A stretch of 35,613 nt of DNA from a virus. Within the stretch, counting starts at the first letter, position 1. Each line of letters opens with the position of its first letter. Shown here in pieces: positions 26 through 29,871 of the stretch. Where the stretch lies: positions 1 to 35,613 of IMG/VR virus record IMGVR_UViG_3300025115_000035. One strand, given 5' to 3'. The translations under genes and the position numbers were made by a program. The notes below the pieces were generated by a model. It had not been told where the DNA came from, searched no databases, and saw nothing but the letters and a program-made list of their open reading frames with translations.

Positions 26-499
26 ATGGGTAGTACTGGTCGGCCATCTGTTCCTGCTCGGATAAAAGAGCTTTCAGGTACAATAAGAAAAGATCGTACC
101 CGGGAAGGCGTTCAGTTTGAACAGATAACAATTGTACCTAAACCGGAATCATGGCTTGACTATAAAGCAAAAAAATATTTCAATAATATCTGTGAGCTGC
201 TGATCAGCATAAAGCTTCTCGACTCCGGGAATGTGCAACTGGTTACACTGATGGCGCAGGAGTTCGCGCGCTATGAGAAAGCACAGCGCGAGATAAAAAA
301 AAGCGGAGAGGTTATCGAAGTGGGAGACAAGGGTTATCAGCAGCCATCGCCCTGGGTCGCTATAAGTAATCAAGCGCAAAAGAACTATCGCGATATAGCA
401 ACACTATTCGGGATGGATCCTATGAGCCGCCAGAAGATTGGCCCCGTGAAGAAAGAAGATAAGGATCCCTTTGATGAACTAAATAAGAAATACGAATGA
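26..499 (+). CDS. terS: Phage terminase small subunit (P27-like)
   Basis: Predicted DNA-recognition subunit of the packaging motor, which brings the concatemer or cos end to the large subunit. The 157-residue length and the N-terminal GRPSVPARIKELSGT segment fit the P27/Terminase_4 family, which typically opens with GRP-x-P followed by a short basic helix; the C-terminus is charged. The start is supported by a strong AAAGGAGGGG site six bases upstream. The frame is also open from base 2, so a longer form entering from outside the window cannot be excluded. The stop overlaps the next start (ATGA). It is unusual that the large subunit follows only 4.7 kb later, after six sugar-related genes. 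Confidence 0.85.
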   Translation: MGSTGRPSVPARIKELSGTIRKDRTREGVQFEQITIVPKPESWLDYKAKKYFNNICELLISIKLLDSGNVQLVTLMAQEFARYEKAQREIKKSGEVIEVGDKGYQQPSPWVAISNQAQKNYRDIATLFGMDPMSRQKIGPVKKEDKDPFDELNKKYE

Positions 500-1149
500 A
501 AACCAAGGTACTGATAATTAATTACAATCGCCTGCTGTTGCCTAAAGCAATGGCTGAATTTGTTGCTTCCCGTGGATGTGAGCCCGTATTCATTGATAAT
601 GCCAGCAACTACAAGCCGTTACTCGATTATTATAAGCACTCTCCTTTTGTCACAATGAAGATGCCTGCAAACTATGGTCATACGGTGTTGTGGAATAACC
701 GGCATTTGTTTAGGACTCTTGGTATCTGTGAGCCATTTATAATGACAGATCCCGACCTCGATCTTTCGGGTGTGCCATCAGACTTTTTGAACAAACTTAA
801 TGAAGGGCTTGAGCTTTATCCGGGGATAAGCAAGTGTGCCCTTTCTCTCGAGATTGAAGATCTGCCGGACACACGCGAAGGTAACTTTATTCGCTTCCAT
901 GAAGCAAAGTACTGGCAGTTTCCTCTTAATGAGAGGTTTTTTTCTGCTGACACAGATACAACCTTTGCTCTTTACCGGTGGCCGCTTGGCGATTACGATC
1001 ACAAAGCCGTTCGTACAAACAGACCGTATACTGCCCGCCATGTTCCATGGTATTACCCTAACCTCCGGGACATCCCGGAAGATGAACAATATTATTACGC
1101 AACCTGCAATGCAAGCAGCAGTGGAAAAGAAAGACTTATGCAGCTATGA
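496..1149 (+). CDS. Glycosyltransferase-like protein (GT-A type)
   Basis: Probable sugar transferase of 217 residues. It begins with a beta strand typical of GT-A folds (KVLIINYNR), has an FIDNAS segment near residues 32-37, and a TDPDLD motif at residues 84-89 that looks like the metal/nucleotide-sugar DxD site. The C-terminal third is Tyr-rich with no further motif I recognise. It starts inside the terS stop codon and its stop overlaps the next gene, so it is translationally coupled in the packaging operon. The acceptor (virion protein, host surface glycan or DNA) cannot be told from sequence. Confidence 0.7.
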   Translation: MKTKVLIINYNRLLLPKAMAEFVASRGCEPVFIDNASNYKPLLDYYKHSPFVTMKMPANYGHTVLWNNRHLFRTLGICEPFIMTDPDLDLSGVPSDFLNKLNEGLELYPGISKCALSLEIEDLPDTREGNFIRFHEAKYWQFPLNERFFSADTDTTFALYRWPLGDYDHKAVRTNRPYTARHVPWYYPNLRDIPEDEQYYYATCNASSSGKERLMQL

Positions 1150-1925
1150 AAAAGATAGTTATTGTAATGACATATTTTGAGCGTCAGGAGCAGCTCAATA
1201 AGACACTCCGCTCGATAGTGAAATCGGGTTACGCCAATTATGAGATCGTTGTGGTGGATGACGGCAGTCAGTATTTCCCTTACATATACGAGATGAACAA
1301 AAAAATTACGGTTCTTCATACCGAACGTAAGGTTTGGACAAACCCGGAGCCGGCTTACAACATCGGCATATATTATGCCATGCTTCAATCGCCCGATATA
1401 ATAATACTCCAGAATGCAGAGTGCTATCATGTGAACGATATTCTTTTTTACGCAAACCAGCATTTGAGAGACGATAATTATATTTCGTTTTCCTGCTTCT
1501 CAATAGACAAACAGAACACTTTTGCAAATCACGATATCACTGCCTTGTTACAGGCCCATGAATATGGAGCCAGTATGGACGGGCAGGTTGCCTGGTATAA
1601 TCACCCTCGCTATAGACCTGTTGGTTATGACTTTTGCTCTGCAATATCAGCTGAGAATATGAGAAAGCTGAATGGTTATGATGAGCGGCTGTCAGATGGA
1701 TGCGGTTATGGCGACGATTATTTGCTTCAGAGAATAAAGATGCTTGGTTTAAAAGTTCAGATACCAGAACCTCCTGCTCCCTTTGTAGTTCATCAATGGC
1801 ACTACAATACTAAAACACCAGATAATAAATCTCAGTTAGTTGAAAAAAACAGGATTCTTTATCATGAACTGCTGAAGGAAAATAATTATAAGGCTGTTCA
1901 TAAATACACAACCGATCTGTTATGA
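1146..1925 (+). CDS. Family 2 glycosyltransferase
   Basis: Inverting GT2-type glycosyltransferase, 259 residues. The nucleotide-binding strand VVVDDGS lies at residues 35-41, and the conserved acceptor-side segment GYDERLSDGCGYGDDYLLQRI-like (about 178-198) carries the likely catalytic Asp. A late VHQWH matches the C-terminal His often seen in GT2 enzymes. The usual DxD is replaced by QNAEC (89-93), as in some GT2 subfamilies, so metal binding may differ. The gene overlaps both neighbours by four bases. It probably acts in the cytoplasm on a nucleotide sugar; donor and acceptor are unknown. Confidence 0.85.
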   Translation: MKKIVIVMTYFERQEQLNKTLRSIVKSGYANYEIVVVDDGSQYFPYIYEMNKKITVLHTERKVWTNPEPAYNIGIYYAMLQSPDIIILQNAECYHVNDILFYANQHLRDDNYISFSCFSIDKQNTFANHDITALLQAHEYGASMDGQVAWYNHPRYRPVGYDFCSAISAENMRKLNGYDERLSDGCGYGDDYLLQRIKMLGLKVQIPEPPAPFVVHQWHYNTKTPDNKSQLVEKNRILYHELLKENNYKAVHKYTTDLL

Positions 1926-3037
1926 GGATACTTTTCATAAACCCCTGGGCCGGAGAAATTTTTCCCCCTCCTTCTCTTGGATACTTGCAGGCAATTGCCA
2001 GGATAAATGGGATTGTCACAAGTGCAATGGATCTGAATGAGAAGAACCTGGCATGGGCCCAGGGCGAGAAGTGGGATCTGATTGCGGTCAGCTTTCACTC
2101 TTTCTCTGTTCAGTACGCACAGAAACTGCGCTCCTATTTTAAGGATGTAAAGATGATTTGCGGAGGTCATCACCCGACCGCTATGCCGGAACAGATGCTC
2201 AGTATGGGTTACGATCAGGTTGTTATAGGGGAGGGAGAAAGGGCTTTAATGGAGATATGCCAGGGTAATTGCGAGCCTGTAGTCAGGTGTGATACATATA
2301 AGGATCTCGACGAGTTGCCCTTTCCCGACTACTCCGGCTTTTACGGTAACTGGTCTATGGGAATACCTGTGATTAGTTCGCGCGGATGTCCTTTCACTTG
2401 TTCGTTTTGCGCTTCAGCAGATTTCTGGGGAAGAAAGTACCGGATGAGAAGCGCGGAGAATGTAGTTAAAGAGATACTCCTGTCAGGGTGGAAACAATTT
2501 ATGTTTGAAGATGACAATTTCACCCTTAATAGAAAAAGGGCAATCGATGTCTGCTCTCTTCTCCGCGAGAAAGGAGGCTTCTCATGGCAGTGTGCCAGCC
2601 GTGCTGAGACTTTGGCTGATGATGAACTCTGCTGGAATCTTAAATCTGCCGGATGCCATACCGTATGGCTGGGCGTGGAAAGCTTCAGCCAGATGTCTCT
2701 TGACCGGTGCGGCAAAAGAACTACAGTTGGGAAAATGGTTGCAGGGATTAAAACGGCACACAGGTATCAGCTCGACACAATGAGTCAGTTCATTGCCGGC
2801 CTGCCCGATGATACTGAGAAAGATATTGATGAGACATGTCGTGTTATCAGAACTGAAAATATTGGTCGCCGGGGCGCAAATGTTCTATGGCTGTTACCTA
2901 ATACGGAGGCTTACAGGAGGGCAAAAGAAAAAGGATTTGATGATAACACATACCTGTATGCCGGAGCTCCCTTCTATACACTTGAGTATGACTATACGAC
3001 ATTAAGAAATTGGGAAACTAAAATCAATAAAGCATGA
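1922..3037 (+). CDS. B12-binding radical SAM protein
   Basis: 371 residues in two recognisable parts. Residues 1-112 look like a cobalamin-binding Rossmann domain (ILFINPW start, GGHHPTAMPE, then VIGEGE). The radical SAM domain follows with the cluster motif C156-x3-C160-x2-C163 and an FEDDNFT segment. Family members perform B12-dependent methylation or other radical chemistry on unactivated carbons and are frequent in sugar, lipid and natural-product pathways. Set between glycosyltransferases and an epimerase, it may modify a sugar or a glycan carrier, but the substrate is inference. The B12-binding DxHxxG motif is not evident, as in many relatives, so cobalamin use is uncertain. Confidence 0.88.
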   Translation: MRILFINPWAGEIFPPPSLGYLQAIARINGIVTSAMDLNEKNLAWAQGEKWDLIAVSFHSFSVQYAQKLRSYFKDVKMICGGHHPTAMPEQMLSMGYDQVVIGEGERALMEICQGNCEPVVRCDTYKDLDELPFPDYSGFYGNWSMGIPVISSRGCPFTCSFCASADFWGRKYRMRSAENVVKEILLSGWKQFMFEDDNFTLNRKRAIDVCSLLREKGGFSWQCASRAETLADDELCWNLKSAGCHTVWLGVESFSQMSLDRCGKRTTVGKMVAGIKTAHRYQLDTMSQFIAGLPDDTEKDIDETCRVIRTENIGRRGANVLWLLPNTEAYRRAKEKGFDDNTYLYAGAPFYTLEYDYTTLRNWETKINKA

Positions 3038-3927
3038 AAATTCTTATTACAGGAGTAAGGGGAAACATAGGCAGCCAGCTGGTGCCTTTCCTGGAGAAAA
3101 ATGGGCATGAGGTTTTTGGTGTGGACATTGTGCAGGGTACTGGTGTAAATTACAAGGTTGCGGATATCAATTACCCGGGAGATCTATTCGATGTGTTCAG
3201 GACTTTTAAACCTGAAGTGTGTTACCACATGGCTGCAATGGTAAGCAGGGTTACGTGTGAGTACTCGCCGAACATAACCATACAAACAAATATTTCAGGA
3301 ACCAGGAACATAGTTAATTTATGTATGATGTATAACACACGGCTGATCTTCTTTTCAACCTCTGAGGTATATGGAAATACTGGTGGCTTGTTGAGTGAAG
3401 TAAGAGATCCTGAACCCAATAATCTTTACGGGTTCTCAAAAATGGTTGGTGAAATGTATGTGAGATATGAATGGGGGCTTGGGCTGGATGCTGTAATTGT
3501 AAGGCCTTTTATGTTTTACCACGAGGATGAAACAAGGGGCGATCACAGAAGTGCTATGATAAGGTTTGTCACAAATTTGCATGAGGGCAAGAAAATTGAG
3601 GTTCATCGAAACAGCGGAAGATCTTGGATGCACATGGATGATGCTTGTGATGTACTCGCCAGGATACTTAACATCAAAGGCAACTTTGTGATGAACATAG
3701 GGAGCTCTGATTATATCTATACCGAGAACCTGGCGAAGATAATCTGCCAGAAGATGAATAAGGATTATGACAGTTTCTGCAATATAACAACCCTGCCGGG
3801 ACAGATGACGCTGACCAAAATACCGGATATCTCCAGAATGATGCAACTCACCGGAAAGACTGAGATGACGGTTTCTCTTGAAGAAGGTATTGATAGGGTT
3901 ATTAACAGGGTTATATCCGGGAGATGA
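3034..3927 (+). CDS. NAD-dependent epimerase/dehydratase (extended SDR)
   Basis: 297-residue extended short-chain dehydrogenase/reductase, the family that interconverts nucleotide sugars (epimerases, 4,6-dehydratases, reductases). The NAD-binding glycine motif GVRGNIGS is at residues 7-14, an HMAA segment near 65, Ser/Thr at FFSTSEVYG (106-114) and the catalytic YGFSK at 132-136. RSWMHMDDACD near 201-211 fits the C-terminal substrate-binding part. It probably supplies a modified sugar nucleotide for the flanking transferases. It overlaps both neighbours by four bases, so the cassette is one transcript. The exact sugar cannot be predicted. Confidence 0.88.
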   Translation: MKILITGVRGNIGSQLVPFLEKNGHEVFGVDIVQGTGVNYKVADINYPGDLFDVFRTFKPEVCYHMAAMVSRVTCEYSPNITIQTNISGTRNIVNLCMMYNTRLIFFSTSEVYGNTGGLLSEVRDPEPNNLYGFSKMVGEMYVRYEWGLGLDAVIVRPFMFYHEDETRGDHRSAMIRFVTNLHEGKKIEVHRNSGRSWMHMDDACDVLARILNIKGNFVMNIGSSDYIYTENLAKIICQKMNKDYDSFCNITTLPGQMTLTKIPDISRMMQLTGKTEMTVSLEEGIDRVINRVISGR

Positions 3928-4616
3928 AGAACGTAACTGCTATAACGGTTGTGTACAACACAAAAGAGCTCTTCAGGAAAGCCTACGATAGCGTCCGCTC
4001 CTTTCATCCTGATATGCCCATGGTTATCGTCGATGGCAGCGACAGAAAAGATCCCTGTTACTCCTATGTGGCAGGCCTTGCCTCAAACCCGCTCAACAAT
4101 ATTCACCAGGTGAGTCACAATATCGGGCACGGCAAAGGGATGCACTACGGCATAGGTAAATGCACAACCCCTTATGCACTGGTATTCGATAGCGATATTG
4201 TTATGCTTAAAAGCCCTGTGCGCGAAATGCTTAACCTTATGTTCCCTTCCACTTATGGGGTGGGATGGGTAACCGAGATCGGATTCGATGGGTACGATTT
4301 TGGCACACCGGGTAAGAAGCATATTAGCGCGGTGCCATATCTGCATCCGTATTTCATGCTTCTGAATGTTGATCAGTACAAATGTTTCTTTCGCTTTGTG
4401 CACCATGGGGCTCCATGTTATAAGGCAATGACAGATCTGTATAATAAGAATCAGTCGTGGAGGCTCAGATACTTCCCTGGCCTTACCGGTCATACGAAAG
4501 GATCGGGCATTAACTGGCAGGGAAAACCGAGCGAGTTCATTCAGCACGATTTTGGAGGTACGCGGCTGAACAACCGGAAGATGGGAAAAAAAGAGATAGA
4601 AGGGTTTTGGGAATAA
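3924..4616 (+). CDS. Glycosyltransferase (GT2-like)
   Basis: 230-residue GT-A fold protein. It opens with a strand-helix pair (AITVVYNTKELFRKAYDSV), has IVDGSD at residues 35-40 and a clear DSD metal/sugar-nucleotide motif at 89-91, inside a LVFDSDIV strand. A Gly/His-rich segment (GLTGHTKGSG) lies near 191-200. The length is short for a full GT2 but normal for phage versions. It follows the epimerase by overlap and precedes the next transferase by 12 bases. Catalytic activity is likely; the acceptor is unknown. Confidence 0.8.
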   Translation: MKNVTAITVVYNTKELFRKAYDSVRSFHPDMPMVIVDGSDRKDPCYSYVAGLASNPLNNIHQVSHNIGHGKGMHYGIGKCTTPYALVFDSDIVMLKSPVREMLNLMFPSTYGVGWVTEIGFDGYDFGTPGKKHISAVPYLHPYFMLLNVDQYKCFFRFVHHGAPCYKAMTDLYNKNQSWRLRYFPGLTGHTKGSGINWQGKPSEFIQHDFGGTRLNNRKMGKKEIEGFWE

Positions 4617-4628
4617 TAAAAATACATT

Positions 4629-5213
4629 ATGAAACTTCACATTATAGTAACAGCATTTCACAGGCCTGTACATCTCAACAGGCTTATACTCGATTTCATT
4701 CTGCAGTCGAATAAGAACTGGCAGATGTATATTGTTCACGACGGACCTGCTCTCAAAGAGATAAAGGAGATTGTCGATTCATTCGGCGACAAGCGGATCG
4801 GCCTTCATATCACGCCCCGCGTTAACGGATTCTGGGGCCATCCCAACCGCGCCATGATGCTCGACCGCATACAGGGAGAACAGGGCGATTATGTTCTCAT
4901 TACTAACGACGACAACCAGTACACTCAGAACCTGGTTGCCACACTTCATTCCTGTTTTCACCCTGCCGTAGGGTTTATTTACTACGACTGCCTTCATAAT
5001 TACTTTGGCTACGACCTTTTCCGGTCCGATATTAAAGTCGGCGGCATCGACATGGGAAGCTTTGTGGTAAGGCTCGATATCGCCAAAAAGGTGGGATTCA
5101 CCACCTATGTCGAAACCGCCGATGGCGTTTATGCTGTTGAATGCGCCGCGGAATGCCGCAAGCAGAACCTTCAGGTTAAGAAAGTCAGCAAAGTAATGTT
5201 TATTCATAACTGA
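4629..5213 (+). CDS. Glycosyltransferase-like protein (GT2-related)
   Basis: 194-residue protein with the start of a GT2 fold (LHIIVTAFHRP), the strand YIVHDGP at 34-40, and ITNDDNQYT at 91-99 in the place of the DxD motif. It is the fourth transferase-like protein of the cassette and the last gene before the large terminase, whose ATG overlaps its stop. Sequence composition becomes more like that of the structural genes from here on. Function as a sugar transferase is likely; donor and acceptor are not predictable. Confidence 0.75.
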   Translation: MKLHIIVTAFHRPVHLNRLILDFILQSNKNWQMYIVHDGPALKEIKEIVDSFGDKRIGLHITPRVNGFWGHPNRAMMLDRIQGEQGDYVLITNDDNQYTQNLVATLHSCFHPAVGFIYYDCLHNYFGYDLFRSDIKVGGIDMGSFVVRLDIAKKVGFTTYVETADGVYAVECAAECRKQNLQVKKVSKVMFIHN

Positions 5214-6892
5214 TGATCCGCGAAGCAGAAAAATATATTAAAGACGTTCTCTCCGGTGTCGTTGCCGTAAGCAAGACAACCAGGCTTACCTTTGAAAGGC
5301 ATAAGGCCGATTTACAGGTAGCCCCCGAAAATGGCTGGTACTTCGATAAAAAGGCTGCCGAGCGGGTGTTCGATTTCTGTTCACTTCTTAAACACTGCCC
5401 CGATAAAAAGCAGTGGGTAACCTTTACACCTGAGCCCTGGCAGGCGGCAATCATATATATCGTTTTCGGATGGAAGAAGAAAGACGGCATGCGCCGTTTC
5501 AGCTATGCTTATATCGAGATCCCGAAAAAGAACGGCAAAACAACATTCGCCGCTCTCTTTGCTAACTACCTTCTGTTCTTCGATGGCGAGGAAGAAGCCG
5601 AGGTCTACTGTGCTGCTACTGTTGAGAAACAGGCTCATATCTGTTTCGACAAGGCAAAACGTATGATCGAGAAAAGCCCTGCGCTGGCAAAGCGTGCCCG
5701 CTGTCTTACCAATAACGTCAGCGTGCTGAGTACTGCCAGTAAAATGGAACCGCTCGGGCGCGACTCTGAAAGAATGGAGGGAGTGAACCCGCACGGTGCA
5801 ATCTTCGACGAGTTCCATGTTTTTACCTGGAAAAACTACCTGGTATTCGAGAACATCCAGTCGGCAACCGTCAACCGCCGCCAGCCCCTGGTTACTATTA
5901 TAACAACATCAGGCCGTGATAAGGATCTGCCATGCTTCGAGTACCGCGCCCTGTGCATCGACATCCTTAACGGCATAAAAGTTCAGGACGACACTTTCGC
6001 AATAATCTACACACTCGACGACGACGACGACTGGAAAGATACTGATGTGTGGCGCAAGGCAAATCCCAACTGGGGAATATCCGTTCTGCCCGAACGGTTT
6101 GAAGATGAGTTTAAGGGTGCCGTTAACAGCACCACAAAAGAGGTGGCATTCAAAACAAAGAACCTGAACATATGGGTTGATGCGCCTACCGTATGGATGA
6201 CCGACGAAAAATGGATGCAGTGCCATCATGGGCTTCAGTATAAGGATCTGCCTGGCAAGGATGCTTATGCAGGGCTCGACCTGGCAAGCCATATCGACCT
6301 TATCTCGCTGGCTCTTTTCTTCCCCGATATCAAAGGGCACCCTGCAATAAGGTGGTGGCACTGGATACCCGAAGAGAAAGCAAGAGAGAAAGCCGATAAG
6401 GTTGATTATATGCTCTGGATAAAACAGGGCCATATGAAAATGTTCCCAGGATCCATTATCGATACCGATCAGCTTGTACACGATGTGCTCGAGATAGTAA
6501 AGCAGTATAATGTTATCGGGCTCGGTTACGATCCGCATATGGCGCATCACGGAACCATACAGGGAATAATGAAGGGAGGCTTCCCCATTCAGCGCCTCGA
6601 TCCCTATTCCCAGGCACATATTAACATGAGCCCTCCCACTAAAGAGTTCGAGAAGATGGTTATGTCGGGCGAGCTCGAACATTTCAATAACCCCCTTCTC
6701 CGCTGGCAGTTGAAGAACGTGGTTATTTATGTCGATAAGAACGGCAACATCTCTCCGCATAAAGGTAAAAGCAAGGAAAAAATCGACGGTATTGTGGCAG
6801 GCATCACTGCCATAGGTGAGTACCTTACCATTACCAACGGCGATCCCGAACATGCCGAAATTTATAAAGATCATAACCTTCGCTTTTTATGA
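5213..6892 (+). CDS. terL: Phage terminase large subunit
   Basis: ATPase/nuclease of the DNA-packaging motor, docking on the portal. 559 residues, the usual size of Terminase_1 (HK97-like) enzymes. The ATPase half shows a Walker A-like IPKKNGKTT at 103-111 and Walker B AIFDE at 196-200, followed by TIITTSG (coupling motif region). The nuclease half starts near YAGLDLAS with the first conserved Asp, has LGYDPH in the middle and the late DGIVAGITAIGE with the last Asp. The start overlaps the stop of the last sugar gene. This packaging type goes with the HK97-type portal, protease and capsid genes downstream. Confidence 0.97.
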   Translation: MIREAEKYIKDVLSGVVAVSKTTRLTFERHKADLQVAPENGWYFDKKAAERVFDFCSLLKHCPDKKQWVTFTPEPWQAAIIYIVFGWKKKDGMRRFSYAYIEIPKKNGKTTFAALFANYLLFFDGEEEAEVYCAATVEKQAHICFDKAKRMIEKSPALAKRARCLTNNVSVLSTASKMEPLGRDSERMEGVNPHGAIFDEFHVFTWKNYLVFENIQSATVNRRQPLVTIITTSGRDKDLPCFEYRALCIDILNGIKVQDDTFAIIYTLDDDDDWKDTDVWRKANPNWGISVLPERFEDEFKGAVNSTTKEVAFKTKNLNIWVDAPTVWMTDEKWMQCHHGLQYKDLPGKDAYAGLDLASHIDLISLALFFPDIKGHPAIRWWHWIPEEKAREKADKVDYMLWIKQGHMKMFPGSIIDTDQLVHDVLEIVKQYNVIGLGYDPHMAHHGTIQGIMKGGFPIQRLDPYSQAHINMSPPTKEFEKMVMSGELEHFNNPLLRWQLKNVVIYVDKNGNISPHKGKSKEKIDGIVAGITAIGEYLTITNGDPEHAEIYKDHNLRFL

Positions 6893-9239: not shown

Positions 9240-9365
9240 TTGTTCTGGATTTCGCCTGTTAATTCCTTTTTTAAAATAGCGGGCGGGAGAGTATGCAACC
9301 TAACGGACACTGGTAGGATTTGAAAATTTACAGAAGCGAAAGAATAACACTAACTCATAGCAACT

Positions 9366-9611
9366 ATGAATCACACATGGAAACCGAACATCGACAAAGG
9401 GTATAAAATTATCCAGACGTGTGCAAGGTGCGGGATAATGAGGCAGAAGAGGACCGTTAGGCACTGTATGGCTATCGTTAATCACCCGCCGTGGAACGTA
9501 TATAAGTACGAATATGTCTGGCATTATACGGATGGCGAACACCCTGAAACGAGAGTGCGTCCTGATTGCAGCGATAAGCCGACATGGAGAACAGGGGGAG
9601 CGTCGGGGTAA
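9366..9611 (+). CDS. Small zinc-ribbon-like protein
   Basis: 81 residues with CARCG near residues 19-23, a second Cys in the middle (RHCMAI) and a late PDC, plus Trp/His/Tyr-rich filler (WNVYKYEYVWHYTDG). The Cys pattern suggests a small zinc-binding fold of a type frequent in Bacteroidales phages. The leader ends CAACT next to the ATG, much like the leaders of the 7337 and 7576 genes. Function unknown. Confidence 0.6.
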   Translation: MNHTWKPNIDKGYKIIQTCARCGIMRQKRTVRHCMAIVNHPPWNVYKYEYVWHYTDGEHPETRVRPDCSDKPTWRTGGASG

Positions 9612-9908
9612 ATTTTTTAAGCCTACCTGTAGTTAGTACAAGTTTGACGGCTTTGTGGGATTGGCAGTCTTGCGTAATTTGTACTAACTATGTTATAACG
9701 GTATAAAAATTACCGTTATAAAGTGTTAAGCCAGATAAAGTGTATGTTAATTAAAAAATAATCAGATGTGAGATCCGGGATGTGGCAGATGAGATTAACC
9801 GCACGAGATTTTTCTGCGTGATCCCGGCGACATCTGTTAATAACCATACCTTAAAACCGCTTTGCAACCCCTTTAATAGTAGCTGTTCATCGTGTTAATA
9901 TCTTGCAA
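9612..9908 (+). other. Structured intergenic region, no gene seen
   Basis: About 390 bases lie between the 9366 gene and portal, with no credible frame. Three structures stand out. First, a perfect 12-base inverted repeat pairs 9630-9641 with 9679-9690. Second, a perfect 11-base hairpin pairs 9693-9703 with 9711-9721 around a 7-base loop. Third, a larger fold pairs 9763-9769 with 9830-9836 and 9775-9780 with 9822-9827 around a smaller hairpin. The density of structure suggests a non-coding RNA or a long portal-operon leader, but I match it to no known family. Confidence 0.45.
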
Positions 9909-9945
9909 AAAGCTGGTAAACAATGTTTACCGGCTTTCTTATTTC
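9909..9945 (+). terminator. Rho-independent terminator upstream of portal
   Basis: Arms 9909-9922 and 9924-9937 form a 14-base stem with one G-U pair around a very short loop (AAAGCTGGTAAAC / GTTTACCGGCTTT), followed by CTTATTTC. It would end the accessory transcript and separate it from the head operon that begins at 10006. Confidence 0.7.
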
Positions 9946-10005
9946 ATGCACCGAACTTTGTACAAGACAAACTGATCAACTCAATTTCATTGTATGAAGA
10001 GGTAA

Positions 10006-11247
10006 ATGGGTAAAAAACTCTCACTGCTCGACAGGTTCTCGGCAGCTGCCGATATCTTAACCCGCGGCACCTTCACAATGCCGGTTTCTGAATGGAAATC
10101 AAATTACTATTTCGGCGCATCCACCAACTCAGGCATAGCTGTTAACGAGGTTACCGCACAGCGGTACTCTGCAGTGTTTGCCTGTGTTCGTCTTTACGAG
10201 TGGGTTACGGCATCGCTGCCTATGAAGATTACTCGCACCGAGGGTAACACACTCGTCGAGATCAAAGAAGGTGAGATCTTCGATCTGCTCAACTACCCCA
10301 ACCGGTTCCAGAATATTTACCAGTTCAACGCACTTATGAATGCCAGGCTCCAGCTGCACGGCAATGCCCTGGCAATAATCAAGACCGACAAGTCCGGCAG
10401 GGCTGTTGAGCTTGTGCCGGTCGAATGGTCGAGTGTTAATGTTCGCCTGGTTAACGGCGAACCTGTTTATGTTGTCGACGATAAGGAAACAGGAATAAAA
10501 GGCACTTTTCTTTACTGGGAAGTTATTCATTATAAGATCAACAGCCGTAACGGGTGGGTGGGACTCTCGCCCCTTACCGTTGCGCGCGAGTCAATCGGCC
10601 ACGGACTGGCTATTGAACAGTTCGGTTCGGGATTCTTTAAAAAAGGAGGCAACCTTAAAGGCGCACTCGAAACCGACGGCCACCTGAGCGATAAGGAGTT
10701 TTCTGCATGGAAAAACCGCTGGGAGAAATATTACGGCGGGGCCGTGGGCGATCATACCACCCCGGTTCTCGAGTACGGAATGAAATACAAACAGATAGGT
10801 GTGGCTCCCAACGATGCACAATTTATCGAATCGGGTATCTTCCGTATTACCGATGTGGCCCGGTTCTTCGGGGTAACGCCTTCAATAATAGGCGAGAACA
10901 CAAAGAACGCATTCACCTCTGCCGAGCAGCAGGCTATTGACTTTGTTCGCTACAGCCTCTCGCCCCTTTGTAAGAACCAGGTTGCCGAGCTCGAGTTCAA
11001 GCTAATGAACCGCGACGAACGCGGTAAGAACGATATTGTATTTGATCTCGATTACCTGCTTAAAGGCGACATGGTAACCCGGGCCAGATACCTGCAGGTA
11101 ATGGTTACCACCGGAATATTTACACGTAATGAGGCAAGGGCCGTGGAAGGCAAGTCGCCGCTCGAAGGGCTGGATGAGCCGCTCGATCCGGCATTCATTA
11201 CGGGGAAACAGGGTTTAACAAACGATAAAGAGAAAGACAATGAGTAA
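10006..11247 (+). CDS. HK97-family portal protein
   Basis: 413 residues, the usual length of the HK97 portal family. It forms the dodecameric ring at the capsid vertex through which DNA enters and to which terminase and connector attach. Typical segments are YSAVFACVRLYEWVTASLP near residue 48, NARLQLHGNALAII (about 110-124), PLTVARESIGHGLAIEQFG, and RITDVARFFGVTPSIIGE followed by SAEQQAIDFVRYSLSPL. An AAGAGG site precedes the ATG. The stop overlaps the protease start by eight bases, the normal order portal-protease-capsid. Confidence 0.96.
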   Translation: MGKKLSLLDRFSAAADILTRGTFTMPVSEWKSNYYFGASTNSGIAVNEVTAQRYSAVFACVRLYEWVTASLPMKITRTEGNTLVEIKEGEIFDLLNYPNRFQNIYQFNALMNARLQLHGNALAIIKTDKSGRAVELVPVEWSSVNVRLVNGEPVYVVDDKETGIKGTFLYWEVIHYKINSRNGWVGLSPLTVARESIGHGLAIEQFGSGFFKKGGNLKGALETDGHLSDKEFSAWKNRWEKYYGGAVGDHTTPVLEYGMKYKQIGVAPNDAQFIESGIFRITDVARFFGVTPSIIGENTKNAFTSAEQQAIDFVRYSLSPLCKNQVAELEFKLMNRDERGKNDIVFDLDYLLKGDMVTRARYLQVMVTTGIFTRNEARAVEGKSPLEGLDEPLDPAFITGKQGLTNDKEKDNE

Positions 11248-12004
11248 GAAAATAACTTTCGGTCATGTGCGCGCTATCCCTGAAGATGCGGGCGAAACAA
11301 GGATCATACCGTTCATTCTTTCAACACCCGAGCGCGACCGTCATCATACAAAGCTCAACCAGGACAACTGGCTCCTCGATAATTACCGCAAAAATCCCGT
11401 GGTGGGATACATGCACAACCTGTATGGCGACCTGTGCAACGTGCCCGATCCCGACGATGTTATCGGCCAGGATAAAGGAGTAGGCACGATTATCGACAAC
11501 GGTATAAAAGTGCTATCCGGTTCCACACTTTTCGATCCGCCCGAGCTTAACATAAAAGCAGAAAAGATATTCCGCAAGCTTCTTCTCGGCAGCCTTCGTG
11601 CCGTATCAGTAGGTTTCAAAGATATCGGCAAGGGGTACTGGGGCCAGGGCGACGAAGCCGAAGGGCGCGACAACGAAACATACTATTTCGAGGGGCAGGA
11701 GCTGTACGAGTATTCAGTGGTTAATATCCCGGGCAATGCCGGTGCAGGCAAGCGCGACATGCGTTTCATGCGCGAGAACACATATGCCGCACTCATGTAT
11801 GCATTTCGCGAACTGGGTAAAAACTACCGGCTCAGCCAGATCGAAACGATGCGTGTACGCGATATTCTCGACCTGCTCGACGGCAAGGATATAGAGATCC
11901 GTGAAACAGATCCCGATAAGGTGCGCCTTATGCTTCAGGAAGAAGAGGCAGTTAAGGCACAGCGCGAGCTGGTTAATAGCCAGATGAGAAAATTCATTAA
12001 GTAA
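11240..12004 (+). CDS. HK97-family prohead protease
   Basis: 254-residue assembly protease that trims the capsid scaffold during head maturation. It has the family opening (IPFILSTPERDRHHTKLNQDNW), a likely catalytic His in VVGYMHN (residue 59) and the likely nucleophile Ser in LRAVSVGF (residue 123), followed by YEYSVVNIPGNAGA. It overlaps portal and lies 44 bases ahead of the capsid gene. The C-terminal 70 residues are charged helix, probably removed or used as scaffold. Confidence 0.93.
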   Translation: MSKKITFGHVRAIPEDAGETRIIPFILSTPERDRHHTKLNQDNWLLDNYRKNPVVGYMHNLYGDLCNVPDPDDVIGQDKGVGTIIDNGIKVLSGSTLFDPPELNIKAEKIFRKLLLGSLRAVSVGFKDIGKGYWGQGDEAEGRDNETYYFEGQELYEYSVVNIPGNAGAGKRDMRFMRENTYAALMYAFRELGKNYRLSQIETMRVRDILDLLDGKDIEIRETDPDKVRLMLQEEEAVKAQRELVNSQMRKFIK

Positions 12005-12048
12005 AACGGCCTTCTTAGGCAAATAAATAACAATTAATAATTAAACAG

Positions 12049-13332
12049 ATGAACAGCAAAGAACTAAGAATGAAGCTGGAGGCCCTCAGAAAGGAGCTTG
12101 AAACAATAGCTAAGAAGGCCTCTGATCAGGTCACCGACGAGGATCGCGCAGCCTGGGTGACAAAACGGACAGAGTATGAAGACCTGGCCGAAAAACTGCG
12201 CATTGAACTCGACCGGGAATTATTCACCCGGGCCAATGCAGGATCAGGCCTCAGTGTTAAAGATCTGAGGGATATGGGAAGGTATTCATTCCGCAAGGCT
12301 ATCCTGGCACAGCTCAAAGGACAGGAGCTCGACGGCATCGAACTCGAGATGCACCAGGAAGCTCAGCGCGAAGCCCGCGAACTCGGCTTTGCCGCTCCCA
12401 TGAAAGGGTTTGGCGTTCCGTATGCGCTGCTGAGCAATAAGCCGCTCTCGCGTGCCAGCACCGGCCAGAATGTAACTACGGTTGCCGACGGCGGATACCT
12501 GGTACAGGAAGAACCTCTCCTGTATTACAACGCTCTTGCCAATAAGCTTCTGCTTCCGGGTATGGGTGCCAAGTTCCTCACGGGCCTTGTAGGCGATCTT
12601 CCTCTGATTGAGGGTGGATCCTTCACAGCAAGCTGGCTCGATGAAGATGCTACCGATACCGCAACAAAAATGGCATTCGATGAGCTTGTAATGAAACCCA
12701 ACAGGCTCCAGGTTACCGGTGCCCTCTCAATACAGCTGTTAAGGCAGGCCAGTGTCGATGTTGAACGCTACATAGAGGAAGCTCTTGTAACTGCTCACGC
12801 ACAGGGATTGCAGACAGCTGCTATCAATGGAAGCGGTACCCCTCCCGAGCCTCGCGGCATCCTTAACAAGGTTGGTATCGGCGCAGTAACCGGAGGCGAC
12901 AATGGTGCTGTTCCAACCTGGGCAAATATTGTAGATCTCGAAACTGAGGTTGCTACCGATAACGCCGAAGGCCCTTCAATGGCTTACTTAACCAATGCCA
13001 AGGTAAGAGGCAAGCTCAAGCAGACCGAGAAAGCTTCCGGCACGGCTCAGTTTATTTGGGATCTCGACGAAATGAACGGGTATCCTGCAATGGTAACGAA
13101 TGCCGTTCCGTCAACCCTTTCAAAGGGCAACCAGTCGAGCGCGCTGTCAGCAATAATCTTCGGCGATTTCAGCAAGCTGCATATCGGCCAGTGGGGTAAC
13201 CTCGAGATAATCGTCGACCCTTACTCGCTCAAGAAGAAGGCAGAGGTTGAGATAACCGTTATCAGCTACGGCGATATCGGAATCGTTCAGCCCGAAGCTT
13301 TCGCTGCAATGAAAGATGTCATTACGGTTTAG
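12049..13332 (+). CDS. HK97-fold major capsid protein
   Basis: 427 residues. Residues 1 to about 65 are a charged coiled-coil (delta/scaffold domain), followed by the HK97 core starting around VADGGYLVQEEPLL. Family features include the ALSIQLLRQASVDVERYIEEALV helix, the INGSGTPPEPRGILN loop and IIFGDFSKLHIGQWGNLEIIVDPYS near the end. The protease just upstream would remove the N-terminal domain. The leader is AT-rich (ATTAATAATTAAACAG) with no Shine-Dalgarno, typical for highly expressed Bacteroidota genes. Confidence 0.96.
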   Translation: MNSKELRMKLEALRKELETIAKKASDQVTDEDRAAWVTKRTEYEDLAEKLRIELDRELFTRANAGSGLSVKDLRDMGRYSFRKAILAQLKGQELDGIELEMHQEAQREARELGFAAPMKGFGVPYALLSNKPLSRASTGQNVTTVADGGYLVQEEPLLYYNALANKLLLPGMGAKFLTGLVGDLPLIEGGSFTASWLDEDATDTATKMAFDELVMKPNRLQVTGALSIQLLRQASVDVERYIEEALVTAHAQGLQTAAINGSGTPPEPRGILNKVGIGAVTGGDNGAVPTWANIVDLETEVATDNAEGPSMAYLTNAKVRGKLKQTEKASGTAQFIWDLDEMNGYPAMVTNAVPSTLSKGNQSSALSAIIFGDFSKLHIGQWGNLEIIVDPYSLKKKAEVEITVISYGDIGIVQPEAFAAMKDVITV

Positions 13333-13371
13333 TCCGGTTTCTTTTCATATCGATCAGGTTAGTTAGGTTAG

Positions 13372-13400
13372 AGGGCCGGTCGTTCCGGCCGGCCCTTTTT
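13372..13400 (+). terminator. Terminator after the capsid gene
   Basis: AGGGCCGG (13372-13379) and CCGGCCCT (13389-13396) form a GC-rich stem followed by a run of T. An alternative stem within the loop (GGCCGG/CCGGCC) is also possible. It probably lowers transcription beyond the capsid gene. Confidence 0.75.
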
Positions 13401-13407
13401 CAAAAAA

Positions 13408-13749
13408 ATGAATGTTATGATCAAAGGTAAATTCCTGAAATCGCACCCGGCCTTCTCATACTTCGAGGGCGAGATTGGTTTTGTCCCTGCCGACAAGGCC
13501 GACCGTCTGGTGAGGGAAGGCTTTTTTCTTCCGATACCCGATACTATTGTAAGCGAGGTTGAAAAAAACCAGCCTTCATCGAATCCGCTCCCGGCAGATC
13601 TTCCCGCCCGCGAAAAGCTATTTGAATCCGGTTATAAAACACTGGCAGAGATTAAGGCGGCAGACGATGCCTTGCTCGAAGTTCCCGGCATAAGCAATGC
13701 CGTTCTGAAGAAGATTAAGAAGTACCTCGAGAAATTCGTATTTGAATAG
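13408..13749 (+). CDS. Helix-hairpin-helix protein of the head operon
   Basis: 113 residues. The N-terminal part (IKGKFLKSHPAFSYFEGEIGFVPADKADRLVREGFF) looks like a small beta domain found in short phage head proteins. The C-terminal part (LPAREKLFESGYKTLAEIKAADDALLEVPGISNAVLKKIKKYL) is a helix-hairpin-helix-like fold with the VPGI turn. It lies between capsid and connector, where small head-completion or decoration proteins are found. An alternative ATG at 13417 would remove three residues. Confidence 0.65.
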   Translation: MNVMIKGKFLKSHPAFSYFEGEIGFVPADKADRLVREGFFLPIPDTIVSEVEKNQPSSNPLPADLPAREKLFESGYKTLAEIKAADDALLEVPGISNAVLKKIKKYLEKFVFE

Positions 13750-13750
13750 T

Positions 13751-14359
13751 ATGGCACTCGAAAAGAGATACAGGTTAGATACGGCTGCTACGGCATACCC
13801 CTGCACGGTCGACGATCTGAAGAGAAACCTTCACATCCGAACCGACGACGATGATATTGATCGCGATCAGCTGCTGCAGGATCTTATCTATTCAGCCGTT
13901 GAGCAGAGCCAGAACAACACCGGAAGGCAATACTGCCAGGCTACCTTTACTCTTTTTCTTAACGAGTACCCCGATGGCGGCGTGGTTGAGATCGAGAAGG
14001 GCCCGGTAATAGAGATACTCTCTGTTAAGTATTATGCTTCGGGCGCAACATCTCTTACTACTGTCGACCCCGCCGATTATGAGCTCGATAACTACGAAGA
14101 CACAGCAAGGTTGCGCTTTAAGGAAGAGTTTACACCAGATGGTGATATGCTTAACCCTATTCAGATACAGTACACCGCGGGCTATTCTGCCCTTGGCGCA
14201 CAGGTGTCGGCGGTGCCTAAACAGCTGAAAGACGCTGTTGTGCTCCGCGCTTCATCTTCCTATCTCAATCCGGGAAACGATCCGGAGAATTACCAGGGTA
14301 GTGTCAAGATCCGCCGTGCAGAGATACTCGAGAAAGACTTTAAACCCCAGCGATTCTGA
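13751..14359 (+). CDS. Head-tail connector protein (gp6-like)
   Basis: 202 residues from the ATG at 13751, one base after the previous stop; an in-frame TTG nine bases earlier is a less likely start. It matches the connector family that forms the ring under the portal: N-terminal TVDDLKRNLHI helix, a DRDQLLQDLIYSAVEQSQNNTGRQY helix, a beta region (PVIEILSVKYY), QIQYTAGYSALGAQVSAVPKQLKDAVVLRASSSY-like helix, and a basic C-terminus. The stop overlaps the next ATG. Confidence 0.85.
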   Translation: MALEKRYRLDTAATAYPCTVDDLKRNLHIRTDDDDIDRDQLLQDLIYSAVEQSQNNTGRQYCQATFTLFLNEYPDGGVVEIEKGPVIEILSVKYYASGATSLTTVDPADYELDNYEDTARLRFKEEFTPDGDMLNPIQIQYTAGYSALGAQVSAVPKQLKDAVVLRASSSYLNPGNDPENYQGSVKIRRAEILEKDFKPQRF

Positions 14360-14691
14360 TGAGCTCTGACTTTAACCCCGGCAGCTTCGACAGGAACGTT
14401 TCCTGGCAAACGGTTACCACCACGCGTACCGGCATGGGATCGCCGTCGAAAACATATACTCACAGCTTCTATGCTTATATGAGCCGCCGTCCGGTTTCGG
14501 GAAACCAGGAGCAGTATGTTACAGGTAGGGGGGTGCTTCCGTTCAGGTTTATTTACAGGGGGCATTACAAGTCTGACATGAACGAAACAATGATCATTGT
14601 CGACGGATCTGTCAAGTACAATGTTCTGAGTGTCGATCCGGTTCAGAACAATATGTTCGTTGAAATTCTGGCAGAAAGGGTAACGGAATGA
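14359..14691 (+). CDS. Head-tail adaptor / head closure protein
   Basis: 110 residues, the size of the Phage_H_T_join (SPP1 gp16-like) family. It starts with a short turn (PGSFDRNVSWQ) and is mostly beta strands (TVTTTRTGMGSPSKTYTHSFYAYMSRR; RFIYRGHY; NETMIIVDGSVKYNVLSVDPV), ending FVEILAERVTE, which is the usual layout. It closes the head and joins the tail. Overlaps with both neighbours show one translational unit. Confidence 0.8.
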   Translation: MSSDFNPGSFDRNVSWQTVTTTRTGMGSPSKTYTHSFYAYMSRRPVSGNQEQYVTGRGVLPFRFIYRGHYKSDMNETMIIVDGSVKYNVLSVDPVQNNMFVEILAERVTE

Positions 14692-15191
14692 GCGCGTTCG
14701 TTCTCGACGGCTACGATAATGTGATAAACATACTTCGCAAAATGCCCGAAGATGGTTACCGCAAACCCGTTATGGCTGCCTTTAAAGCAGCTGCCGAACC
14801 GGTTAAGGAGGCAATGATCAATAGCCTCCCTCCCGAGCTGCGCAAGCTGAAGAAAGCCATTAAGATAAAGCCAGGCAAAAGCAAGCGGCCTTCGCTTGCC
14901 GTGGGTGTTTACGGCAGGCAGATGCTGTACCGTAACCGCAGGGGTGTAGACTGGGATCCGTACATGCTTATTTACTGGCACAACTACGGAACCATTGCCG
15001 GAAGGTCGCCGCTGCACCAGTTCAAAAACAAGGTGCGCCCTGCTTCGCTCAGGCGGGGCGGCGGAATCAGGGCCAGGCTGTTTATTGAGAATGCTGTGGC
15101 TGCATCGCTGCCGAAAGCAGAAAGACGGTTCGAGACGGCATACGCATTCGAGCATCACAGGTTTTTAGAAAAGGAGGCTGCAAAATGGTAA
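14688..15191 (+). CDS. Tail completion / neck protein (HK97 gp10-like)
   Basis: 167 residues. The N-terminal amphipathic helix region (LDGYDNVINILRKMPEDGYRKPVMAAFKAAAEPVKEAMI) and the central YMLIYWHNYGTIAGRSPLHQF are typical of HK97 gp10-like proteins, where a W-x-N/E-x-GT motif is conserved. The middle is strongly basic (KKAIKIKPGKSKRPS). It lies between the adaptor and tail terminator, the standard position. Confidence 0.82.
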   Translation: MSAFVLDGYDNVINILRKMPEDGYRKPVMAAFKAAAEPVKEAMINSLPPELRKLKKAIKIKPGKSKRPSLAVGVYGRQMLYRNRRGVDWDPYMLIYWHNYGTIAGRSPLHQFKNKVRPASLRRGGGIRARLFIENAVAASLPKAERRFETAYAFEHHRFLEKEAAKW

Positions 15192-18264: not shown

Positions 18265-20399
18265 TGGCATACGGCACCAAATACACTCTTTATATGACAT
18301 CGTCGCAATCTGCCGATGTGTATAAGGTATTGCTTAAAAAGAACGGGTACGAAGGGGAAGAGGTCAGCCGTAACGTTCCGTTCTCGCCGTTCATTCCTAA
18401 GAAAGACAAGGCGGCATATGTTCGCGGAACATCTCTGCTTATGCGTATAAGAGAAGAGGTCGACTTCGAGTTTCTCGAGTTCTATACCAACGATCCGCGC
18501 GAATGGCTTGTTGAGTATTACAAAAACGACGTGCTGATATGGACCGGTTACATAGTGCCCCAGCAGTACCAGGCACCGTACAAGACTGCACCGAACAACA
18601 TAACCATACTGGCAACCGACGGGCTCGGCCTGCTGAAAAACGAATCGTTTACCCTTACTGGGCGTAACAGCGAGCTTACAACAGTAAGGCACTGTATCGA
18701 CAAGATAGCCCTTAACCTGGGCTATGCCATAGCAATAAGCATGAGGCCAAAGGGGCAGGCGACAGACAGGGCTGTTCTCGCGCAGGTTTATTCCGATGCA
18801 GAGATATATGAGAATAAGAACTGTTACGAGGTTCTCGAAGACATACTGAAAAAGTACGATGCCGATATTACCCAGGTTAACGGACTCTGGCATATAATAA
18901 GAAGCCTCGACCGAAAAACCGACCGCATGCTCTATACTTACGACGGTACTTACGAAGATACTGAATCGGGTCCTGTAACATATTACCTGATGACATCGCT
19001 TGCGCAGGCAACATCGTGCAGGCCCGTGGGTATGCTGAACCATACACTGGTTCCCGGGGGCAAACAGGTAACAATAAAACACGACTTCGGCAGAAAAGAT
19101 ACTTTGCTGAGTAACGGCAACTTTGTCGATTACTCTTCGTCTATGTTCGTCGACTGGACCAAGACTGGTGCTTCGTTCAATGTTTACCAGCGCGATCTCG
19201 ACGGCAAAAAATATGCTTTTCTCGACAGCAACCATGCCTCCGACAAGTATATTGAGCAGAGCGTGCCGATAGAAAATGTTGCCGATCAGTACTTTGTGGT
19301 ATCCATTCTTGTAGCTGCCTTTGGTTACGAGATATACGGAGGCCTGTGGAAAAGCCTGCCGGTCAATATACGCATGGACATATGGGTTGAAGACGGTTCG
19401 CATACCTATTACCTGAAGAAAGAGAATGTGTGGGGTGCCGACGGGGTAACTAATACCCTTACTTACTCAACCACATCGTCGATAGGTGCACCGAACTTTA
19501 ATGAGGTAAAGATAATTACCGACGAAATTCCCATAAGCTCGGGTAACCTGCACGTAAGGCTGTATGCCACAAAAATGACCATCTTCGGCGACAGGTATTA
19601 CCTGGGCTGTGCCTTTGCCGACTGCTTCCTCTATTTCCTTAACAACGGGCAGAAGTATCCTTCGAGCGTATCTACGGCGTGCGCGTTCGACAACTCAAAG
19701 GAACCGAATATACTTCCCGATATAACCCTGCTTGCAGGCAACGCACCCGACCTGGCGAACGCAGGCTACCTTTACCGCAATATACTGAGAATATCGGACG
19801 GCACACCGATAACAGACTGGAACATCGACGGCGACGGAACCGATTACACCCTTACCCAGCTTATGGCAAAAACACTGGCAAGCAATAACCGTGTTGCCAG
19901 GCAGAAGCTTACAGGTACAGTGAGGGGCGCATCGCTGGCTTTCGACTCGATAATTAAGCATGAATATAACTCCGACCGCGAGTTTGAGATAACGGAATGC
20001 GAGCACGATCCTTTTCTCGAAACATATAATGTTGTTTTTGAGGAACTGCTTGCATGGAGCAGCGAAACGGTAACGTATACCGAAACAAGCTCGCTCGGAT
20101 CTTCAGCATCTACCCGCGGCGACGATGAAGGATCCTCTACGGTTATAATAATGACCGGCGACGACATACTCAACAAGCTGCTCGAGGTCGATGGCGACGG
20201 ATCGGGCCTCGATGCCGACCTGCTCGACGGCGAACATGGTAGTTATTATGCTCCCATTGAAGATCCTGTTTTTCAGGGGGTGGTTAAGGCCGACCACATT
20301 GGAGAAGCAACCGAGGATCACAATGTTGAGTTTGATAACCCGGTAAAAGTTAATGGCAATATTGAATCAACAGGCGATATAATAGCATATGTAAGCTGA
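18264..20399 (+). CDS. Large tail-tip protein with fibre-type end
   Basis: 711 residues, the first large gene after the tape measure, where distal tail or baseplate-hub proteins are encoded. The N-terminal 200 residues (beta-rich, with DPREWLVEYYKNDVLIWTGYIVPQQYQAPYK) look like a baseplate/tail-tip domain; the middle is beta-rich. The last 70 residues carry SGLDADLLDGEHGSYYAP, a motif common at the junction of tail proteins and fibres. The ATG overlaps the tape measure stop. Exact role (hub, adsorption or both) is inferred from position. Confidence 0.72.
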   Translation: MAYGTKYTLYMTSSQSADVYKVLLKKNGYEGEEVSRNVPFSPFIPKKDKAAYVRGTSLLMRIREEVDFEFLEFYTNDPREWLVEYYKNDVLIWTGYIVPQQYQAPYKTAPNNITILATDGLGLLKNESFTLTGRNSELTTVRHCIDKIALNLGYAIAISMRPKGQATDRAVLAQVYSDAEIYENKNCYEVLEDILKKYDADITQVNGLWHIIRSLDRKTDRMLYTYDGTYEDTESGPVTYYLMTSLAQATSCRPVGMLNHTLVPGGKQVTIKHDFGRKDTLLSNGNFVDYSSSMFVDWTKTGASFNVYQRDLDGKKYAFLDSNHASDKYIEQSVPIENVADQYFVVSILVAAFGYEIYGGLWKSLPVNIRMDIWVEDGSHTYYLKKENVWGADGVTNTLTYSTTSSIGAPNFNEVKIITDEIPISSGNLHVRLYATKMTIFGDRYYLGCAFADCFLYFLNNGQKYPSSVSTACAFDNSKEPNILPDITLLAGNAPDLANAGYLYRNILRISDGTPITDWNIDGDGTDYTLTQLMAKTLASNNRVARQKLTGTVRGASLAFDSIIKHEYNSDREFEITECEHDPFLETYNVVFEELLAWSSETVTYTETSSLGSSASTRGDDEGSSTVIIMTGDDILNKLLEVDGDGSGLDADLLDGEHGSYYAPIEDPVFQGVVKADHIGEATEDHNVEFDNPVKVNGNIESTGDIIAYVS

Positions 20400-21409
20400 T
20401 GGCAAAACCTATTCCGAAATACAGGGCTTACACAACAGGCGAAATGAAATCGAGATCCTATATTCCCGATGCCGGGGATATTGCTGAAAGCGGTAACCAG
20501 ATGCTTTGCTCCAATATAAAGCTCAGCGATGTTAAGAGTGTGCTCGGCCTGCCCGATAACAAGCTTTCGGTTCTGTGCGCAGCCGGCAACCAGATGAACC
20601 TTTGGAGCTGCTTCTCTCCGGTTGTAAGAAGCATAAACAGCCAGGAGATAGTTAACAGCATGCCTGTTAATAATTTCAGCCTGGGAAGCTGGGCAGGGTA
20701 TAATCACGAGGCCGTAACACCCAGCCGCGATTATGTTCAGACATCGGCAACGGCAACAGAGGGGAACAGCTTTGAGATTGCAGCAAATATAACAATAGGC
20801 GAAGTAAATTTCGAACCGCTTAATATATACGGACTCGCACTTGCAATATATGACGGAGTAAGCTTTGTGGCTGCCGATGTTGTTGATATGAGCACCCTTA
20901 AAGACGGGGCGGAGCTTACTGTTACATGCCCCGGGGTATCGTCGGACAAGTCGTACACAGGTAAGTTCTATTTTATAAACGATGCGGAATCGTTCAGTGA
21001 AGGATCTATTATTGCAAAGGTGCCCAACTGTGCCGACTTTACTATAGCCGTTACCGTTCTGCAGGCAAACTATATAACGGTGTCTGCCGAGGGGTTCCTG
21101 AAAGATTCCGACGATCAGCCCCTTACTGCCGACGACTGTTCGTTCAGCTCGGTTAACGGCACCTTCGGCTTCCCGACTATATACAGGGGAACGGGCGATG
21201 CGGATATATCGATTTACGTAAGGCTTGTTCACCAGGTCGACGGAGAGCAGGATGTTGTTTACATACTGGGCCCGGGAGGATCGTATACCGCCAACGACAG
21301 GATACCGGGCGATACGCTTGAGTTTTCGAGTGAGGGGGGCAGCGATCCCGGTCCGCCTTATTCAAGCTACGGGTGGAGATGGGAATTTTTGGTTGAAACA
21401 TCGAGTTAA
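20399..21409 (+). CDS. Putative minor tail / fibre protein
   Basis: 336 residues, beta-rich, Ser/Asp/Gly/Tyr-rich, without signal peptide. It starts in the stop codon of the large tail-tip gene, so the two are coupled. The N-terminus (IPKYRAYTTGEMKSRSYIPDAGD) seems structural; the C-terminus ends in a GSDPGPPYSSYGWRWEFLVETSS tail. No family recognised. Its position suggests a virion protein of the tail tip. Confidence 0.6.
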   Translation: MAKPIPKYRAYTTGEMKSRSYIPDAGDIAESGNQMLCSNIKLSDVKSVLGLPDNKLSVLCAAGNQMNLWSCFSPVVRSINSQEIVNSMPVNNFSLGSWAGYNHEAVTPSRDYVQTSATATEGNSFEIAANITIGEVNFEPLNIYGLALAIYDGVSFVAADVVDMSTLKDGAELTVTCPGVSSDKSYTGKFYFINDAESFSEGSIIAKVPNCADFTIAVTVLQANYITVSAEGFLKDSDDQPLTADDCSFSSVNGTFGFPTIYRGTGDADISIYVRLVHQVDGEQDVVYILGPGGSYTANDRIPGDTLEFSSEGGSDPGPPYSSYGWRWEFLVETSS

Positions 21410-21427: not shown

Positions 21428-21589
21428 ATGTTACCAGATCTGTTAGTACTCGCGTTCCTGCTGGCCATGTTTGGCGCAGCATTGTATTTCTACCGCCGCT
21501 GCCGGAAAAGCAATAAGCCCGGAACAGGAGGCGGAACTATACCACAGGTGCCTGATTCGGACGATAACATTAACAACAAAGACCAGTAA
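21428..21589 (+). CDS. Small membrane protein (53 residues)
   Basis: One transmembrane segment at about residues 4-21 (DLLVLAFLLAMFGAALYFY-like), then a basic stop-transfer (RRCRKSNK) and a polar, Gly/Asp/Asn-rich tail. The ATG follows an AT-rich leader typical of this genome. No family recognised; a membrane-anchored accessory or lysis-related peptide is possible. Confidence 0.6.
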   Translation: MLPDLLVLAFLLAMFGAALYFYRRCRKSNKPGTGGGTIPQVPDSDDNINNKDQ

Positions 21590-21611
21590 TGCCAATCAGG
21601 GTAGTTATAGG

Positions 21612-29847: not shown

Positions 29848-29871
29848 CAAGGTATAACCAATACTAACGAG

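Follow-up and report, generated by a model that had tools for sequence, protein, structure and literature searches.

We analyzed the viral contig IMGVR_UViG_3300025115_000035 from IMG/VR over its whole stretch of 35,613 bases (positions 1 to 35,613, hereafter the window), and in particular the interval between the genes of the small (terS) and large (terL) terminase subunits. The window opens with terS and carries an integrase gene shortly before its end; since an integrase of the same type sits 5' of terS in the related contig L019, the window is probably a near-complete genome. terS (26-499; PF05119, E 9.5e-20; PHROG 83, E 9.9e-33) and terL (5213-6892; PF20441, E 7.7e-44; PF03354, E 2.2e-27; PHROG 9) border a slot filled by six intact open reading frames (ORFs), all on the plus strand like terS and terL themselves. 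These are GT1 (496-1149; 217 amino acids, aa), an orphan glycosyltransferase (GT) of GT-A type recognized from an AlphaFold2 model and its homologues; GT2 (1146-1925; 259 aa), a family-2 GT (PF00535, E 2.6e-10) with a galactosyltransferase-like C-terminus (PF02709, E 7e-5, just under the cut-off); a B12-domain radical SAM enzyme resembling AprD4 (1922-3037; 371 aa; PF04055, E 1.4e-21; PF02310, E 1e-11); Epi (3034-3927; 297 aa), an NAD-dependent sugar epimerase/dehydratase of the extended short-chain dehydrogenase/reductase (SDR) type (PF01370, E 2.3e-37; PHROG 540); GT3 (3924-4616; 230 aa), a family-2 GT (PF00535, E 4.1e-10); and GT4 (4629-5213; 194 aa), a family-2 GT that recurs as a neighbour of terL (PF00535, E 9.5e-7; SpsA 1h7l, E 9.7e-8 with a family profile). 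A preliminary description of this DNA had proposed a six-gene sugar cassette at this locus: all ORFs lie where it placed them, and their families or folds fit (for GT1, by the model only). It had also described ATGA overlaps interrupted by one 12-base gap, and this is correct for five junctions and for the gap (4617-4628), but GT4 and terL are joined by a one-base TGATG overlap instead.

The catalytic signatures are preserved: DPD in GT1, DSD in GT3, CPFTCSFC in the radical SAM protein, and GxxGxxG with YxxxK in Epi. Non-synonymous divergence of the cassette genes amounts to 0.19-0.33 per site, with synonymous divergence saturated, and the genes are evidently under purifying selection. GT1 had no match in Pfam, PHROG or NCBIfam. 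Its model (pLDDT 84.9) adopts a fold of GT-A type whose nearest structural matches are GnT-I, POMGnT1 and sugar nucleotidyltransferases, and its homologues, 48-71% identical, occur in the terS-terL slot and in Mu-like phages. All cassette proteins are predicted to be free of membrane segments (maximum 19-residue Kyte-Doolittle 0.91-1.01), and neither flippase, polymerase nor lipid-carrier genes were found among the cassette genes by Pfam and PHROG matches; the GtrB profile gave only weak matches to the N-terminus of GT2 (E 0.014 and 0.065).

In sequence comparison, the solved structure closest to the radical SAM protein is AprD4 (6fd2, E 1.5e-22), which by TM-score, too, is the closest or among the closest (0.74, with a model of mean pLDDT 73 built on a shallow alignment). 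The protein has the CX3CX2C motif and the N-terminal B12-like domain that an AprD4-type enzyme requires. In the apramycin pathway, AprD4 takes a hydroxyl off a sugar ring and is partnered by the reductase AprD3 (PMC5461906). Here too an NAD(P)-type enzyme is adjacent: an SDR adjoins the radical SAM gene in the window and in contigs L031, L033, L046 and L048, while L049 has the radical SAM gene with no Epi detected and L034 an epimerase with no radical SAM gene. By analogy, a two-enzyme deoxygenation by the radical SAM protein and the adjacent SDR is plausible. However, the protein scores far under the cut-off of the curated AprD4 family NF033070 (62.5 against 500 bits), which makes it a relative and not a member; since in addition the methylases MgmA and TsrM score near AprD4 in fold against the model, methylation or epimerisation are alternatives.

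Relatives of the window's TerL, at 60-76% identity, were gathered from viral contigs and from metagenome-assembled genomes (MAGs) of Bacteroidota. The MAG contigs place the host in the phylum Bacteroidota, but do not establish the order Bacteroidales that had been named for it. As had been stated, terS and terL are normally adjacent: the two genes overlap in L019, and in L003 a 64-aa ORF alone lies between them. The cargo of the slot varies in the other contigs. We found two GTs and GT4 in L008; a methyltransferase-like ORF, two GTs, GT4 and an HNH-like ORF in L009; a PAPS-reductase-like gene, a methyltransferase-GT fusion, a GT and GT4 in L052; a methyltransferase-GT fusion, a GT and GT4, then a retroelement, in L004; a retroelement, then GT1, another GT-like ORF, a C-methyltransferase, GT3 and GT4, in L002; retroelements and no GTs in L005, L006 and L036; and a retroelement with a PAPS-reductase-like gene in L007, whose upstream end is missing. 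The flanking order GT1...GT3-GT4 is kept, with the middle replaced, both in L002 (by the glycosyltransferase and the C-methyltransferase) and in L072. On the TerL tree, the presence of GTs changes six times among 15 scored genomes, at least four of these changes being forced by strongly supported branches, and the changes are not fewer than with shuffled labels. Given this pattern and the varied cargo, the cassette behaves as a fast-turnover accessory module. By eye, GTs were seen with both capsid-protein groups, with no link between GT presence and capsid type.

The block is thus not the unique cassette that it had been taken for, but one occupant of a hypervariable slot, and similar islands stand at terL in four terminase lineages. 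The cassette is absent from L003, L005, L006, L019 and L036. The preliminary description had listed absence from close relatives among the results that would refute it; here it shows an accessory module that can be replaced, not one that lacks function. The recurrence of parts of the gene order in L002 and L072, which are independent contigs, rules out an assembly artefact. Two further kinds of genes were observed around the slot: DNA-methyltransferase-like ORFs, within the slot of relatives without glycosyltransferases (L035:1416-3092, L036:6469-7206 and L079:438-1181), and PAPS-reductase-domain genes, near terL in two terminase lineages (L007:2064-3281, L052:520-1713 and, by eye, L053:10575-11420).

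Five of the relatives carry retroelements between terS and terL (L002:550-2894, L004:7388-9742, L005:285-2625, L006:290-2644 and L036:7405-9785), each with two small variable proteins. In all five, a short template repeat matches variable repeats in the two small proteins, and a reverse transcriptase lies 3' of the template and variable repeats (with a PF00078 match in L002). Over ten alignments, 142 of 142 mismatches between template and variable repeat fall on a template adenine. By these hallmarks the slot retroelements are genuine diversity-generating retroelements. The window itself contains no retroelement genes.

A search of the viral contigs with a profile of GT4 alone returned 29 contigs, or 22 after redundancy was removed at 90% identity. 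The profile was made from the slot copies, so the count is biased for the window's own lineage, though not for the other three. Of the 22 non-redundant copies, 19 are followed by terL on the same strand at a distance of no more than 2.7 kb; in 11 of these 19, terL starts within 10 bases of the GT4 stop codon. The terminases beside GT4 are of four types. The first is the window's own PF03354/PF20441 type. The second is Pachyviridae-like (PHROG 6681, next to a portal of PHROG 6547 on its 3' side); its named kin include Cellulophaga phage phi19:3 and Elemovirus. In the named phages phi19:3, Elemovirus and ctfjg026, no annotated GT lies directly upstream of this terL, so the islands at type-2 terL are accessory as well. 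The third is the PF03237 type of L060-L063, where three tandem GT4-like copies precede terL (L060:1548-3298). The fourth is found in L072, where GT1-GT2-GT-GT3-GT4 is followed by a terS-like ORF and terL. On the GT4 tree, copies from one terminase lineage nest within another: L053 (type 2) groups with the window's type (support 100/100), and L059 with L060a (88/85). GT4 thus passes from one phage lineage to another.

The upstream part of the cassette recurs without terL. Three contigs (L031, L033 and L046), which we read as Mu-like from the gene order of L033, contain GT1, GT2, the radical SAM gene and the epimerase in the same order and with touching frames. The module sits there between the major head protein and the next head gene, with a sialyltransferase-like gene on its 5' side and a GT and a sulfotransferase on its 3' side. 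Profiles confirmed portal, head morphogenesis, head maturation protease-like, major head, virion structural and major tail proteins in L033. Contig L030 has the same flanks around a different middle, consisting of a 244-aa protein read as another type of radical SAM enzyme and a further GT-like ORF. The modules move between phages and yet stay within virion operons. In L033 the whole glycan island, with its sialyltransferase-like and sulfotransferase genes, lies between the gene of the major head protein and those of the connector (9270-14777).

We consider a late, exchangeable glycan-assembly island that decorates virion proteins to be the best explanation, and give it roughly even credence. 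The six genes would be translated together with terS and terL, late in infection. Such late co-expression with virion genes, already suggested in the preliminary description, is inferred from sequence, namely from the gene coupling here and the placement of the modules in packaging and head operons of unrelated phages. The soluble GT-A enzymes would draw on host nucleotide sugars; several small GTs occur with sugar-tailoring enzymes in most sampled versions, which argues for a short oligosaccharide, of at most about four or five linkages, over a single glucosylation. As the versions are united by their placement in virion operons, sugars on the phage's own proteins are the simplest reading, and the oligosaccharide may be built directly on them. 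Tail, fibre or other exposed proteins would be the likeliest acceptors; an extra GT beside likely fibre genes in the tail region is a hint in favour of tail or fibre proteins. One of the sugars could be tailored by the radical SAM enzyme together with the neighbouring dehydrogenase. By analogy with AprD4/AprD3, a radical dehydration and then a reduction with NAD(P)H would yield a deoxy sugar; radical epimerisation or C-methylation is the alternative chemistry. With the flanking GTs kept and the middle tailoring genes swapped, related phages would bear different coats, which would alter adsorption, competition or particle recognition. A glycan on the virion, the first product that had been suggested, keeps its place as the best reading, with a presumed acceptor.

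Some observations weigh against a virion glycan. The cassette is missing from close relatives, and hence dispensable in at least some hosts. The four lineages that share GT4 differ in their virion proteins, so that a shared virion acceptor is not obvious, and GT4 could instead extend a sugar that they share, or its acceptor could be a molecule of the host. Epi may be an ordinary epimerase unrelated to AprD3. Finally, membrane-free family-2 GTs can work peripherally on lipid-linked host glycans.

A broader version of the virion-glycan reading can be put forward tentatively. The packaging locus of several Bacteroidota phage lineages may be dedicated to diversification of the particle surface, a locus in which retroelements that vary proteins and glycan sets (GTs, radical SAM enzymes, methyl- or sulfotransferases, with the terL-coupled GT4 as anchor) are interchanged or combined, and in which the glycan would contain a sugar deoxygenated or rearranged by the radical SAM enzyme.

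The main rival is a late modification of the host surface, possible but in our view unlikely, in which sugars would be added to host capsule, lipopolysaccharide or lipid-linked precursors and would block superinfection or the sticking of particles to debris. A GT next to the head genes of Gratiaviridae has been interpreted in this way (PMC8008677). In a few Bacteroidota genomes, relatives of the radical SAM protein and GT1 adjoin GT-looking ORFs and, once, an EpsG-like polymerase (by eye), and the occurrence of GT4 in phages with different virions would suit a shared host acceptor. However, the cassette has no membrane GT, flippase, polymerase or GtrA/GtrB-like gene, its GTs (194-259 aa) are soluble and consist of a minimal GT-A domain, and an alteration made just before lysis would affect only a dying cell.

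We consider it improbable that the cassette is passive cargo, with the terS-terL boundary being a tolerated insertion site and the role of the genes lysogenic or unrelated. The slot does accept retroelements, methylases, HNH-like and PAPS-reductase-like genes, and two integrase genes suggest a temperate phage; but modules with GT4 or GT1 also stand in virion operons that lack this site (the Pachyviridae-like and Mu-like contigs), and the overlapping frames leave no space between genes for a promoter of their own, which points to expression as part of the operon.

The weakest alternative is DNA hypermodification, in which sugars would be placed on modified phage bases before packaging. T4-like phages glycosylate DNA, and such a role would account for the terminase link and for an acceptor shared by all lineages; the slot cargo of L035, L036 and L079 also includes DNA-methyltransferase-like genes. 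It is nonetheless very improbable, and the preliminary description had ranked it as less likely too: in 19 phage records, namely the window and 18 related ones of which several are fragments, a thymidylate-synthase-type hydroxymethylase (PF00303) was not found although the controls were positive; a C5-methylase is absent from the window and most GT-bearing relatives; and partners of the sulfotransferase, sialyltransferase-like and sugar C-methyltransferase kinds do not resemble glucosylation of DNA as in T4. The TET/JBP dioxygenase profile PF12851 had no match, but matched no control either.

Phage GTs and virion glycosylation are already known in principle; to our knowledge, virion glycosylation by phage-encoded enzymes has been demonstrated in few phages. 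Mycobacteriophages coat capsid and tail tube with sugars by means of GTs of their own (PMC12363180); in Che8, Corndog and Myrna, the GTs that the phage encodes are proposed to decorate capsid or tail proteins in this way (same article, citing Freeman et al. 2023). By comparison, the present case is a candidate system, a multi-gene island with sugar-tailoring enzymes placed in the terminase operon of Bacteroidota phages. The serotype-converting gtrABC cassettes of temperate phages are likewise accessory and contain glycosyltransferases, but the window's cassette lacks a GtrA flippase and a membrane GtrB and lies in a packaging operon. Gratiaviridae, also phages of Bacteroidetes, have a GT within a late morphogenesis cluster; theirs, however, is one GT accompanied by a HipA-type kinase and an ATPase and encoded among portal and capsid genes, with no island at terL (PMC8008677). 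T4-type DNA glucosylation shares the use of phage glycosyltransferases, whereas here there is no hydroxymethylase and the partner enzymes are typical of oligosaccharides.

Among 50,697 named phages, the window has no relative at the DNA level, GT1 and GT3 have no protein match, GT4 has one distant match (in a 595-kb metagenomic phage) and the radical SAM protein has four distant matches. GT4 was not found in 395 Bacteroidota genomes at E 1e-15 (positive control on phage records), and no description of such an island was found in the literature that we searched. The islands suggest that uncultured Bacteroidota phages may widely practise virion glycosylation, in a modular and fast-evolving form, and that its genes should be sought in packaging and head operons, with GT4 as a terL-adjacent marker for finding further islands. 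They also tie glycan variation to retroelement variation and phage competition in a way that can be tested, and the cassette supplies a phage-borne candidate for a radical SAM sugar-tailoring enzyme.

Downstream of terL, the window follows the ordinary siphovirus order of portal (10006), major head protein (12049), adaptor, head closure, tail completion and tail protein. A fifth intact glycosyltransferase, besides the four of the cassette, is encoded on the plus strand in the tail/fibre region (21471-22691), with a GT2 domain (PF00535, E 2.3e-9) and a methyltransferase-like domain (PF08241, E 0.0012); its true start is probably an internal ATG before MKISIITP. It is flanked by an ORF at 20399-21409 and, on its 3' side, by a gene (22695-24320) with low G+C at third codon positions (GC3); its product, of 541 aa, is probably a fibre or adhesin and contains numerous near-identical LRR/FNIP-like repeats (SISWTYNGALPTGLTYL). 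Two differing tyrosine recombinase genes (27179-28384 and 34523-35503) and a tRNA-Met (29776-29848) lie further downstream.

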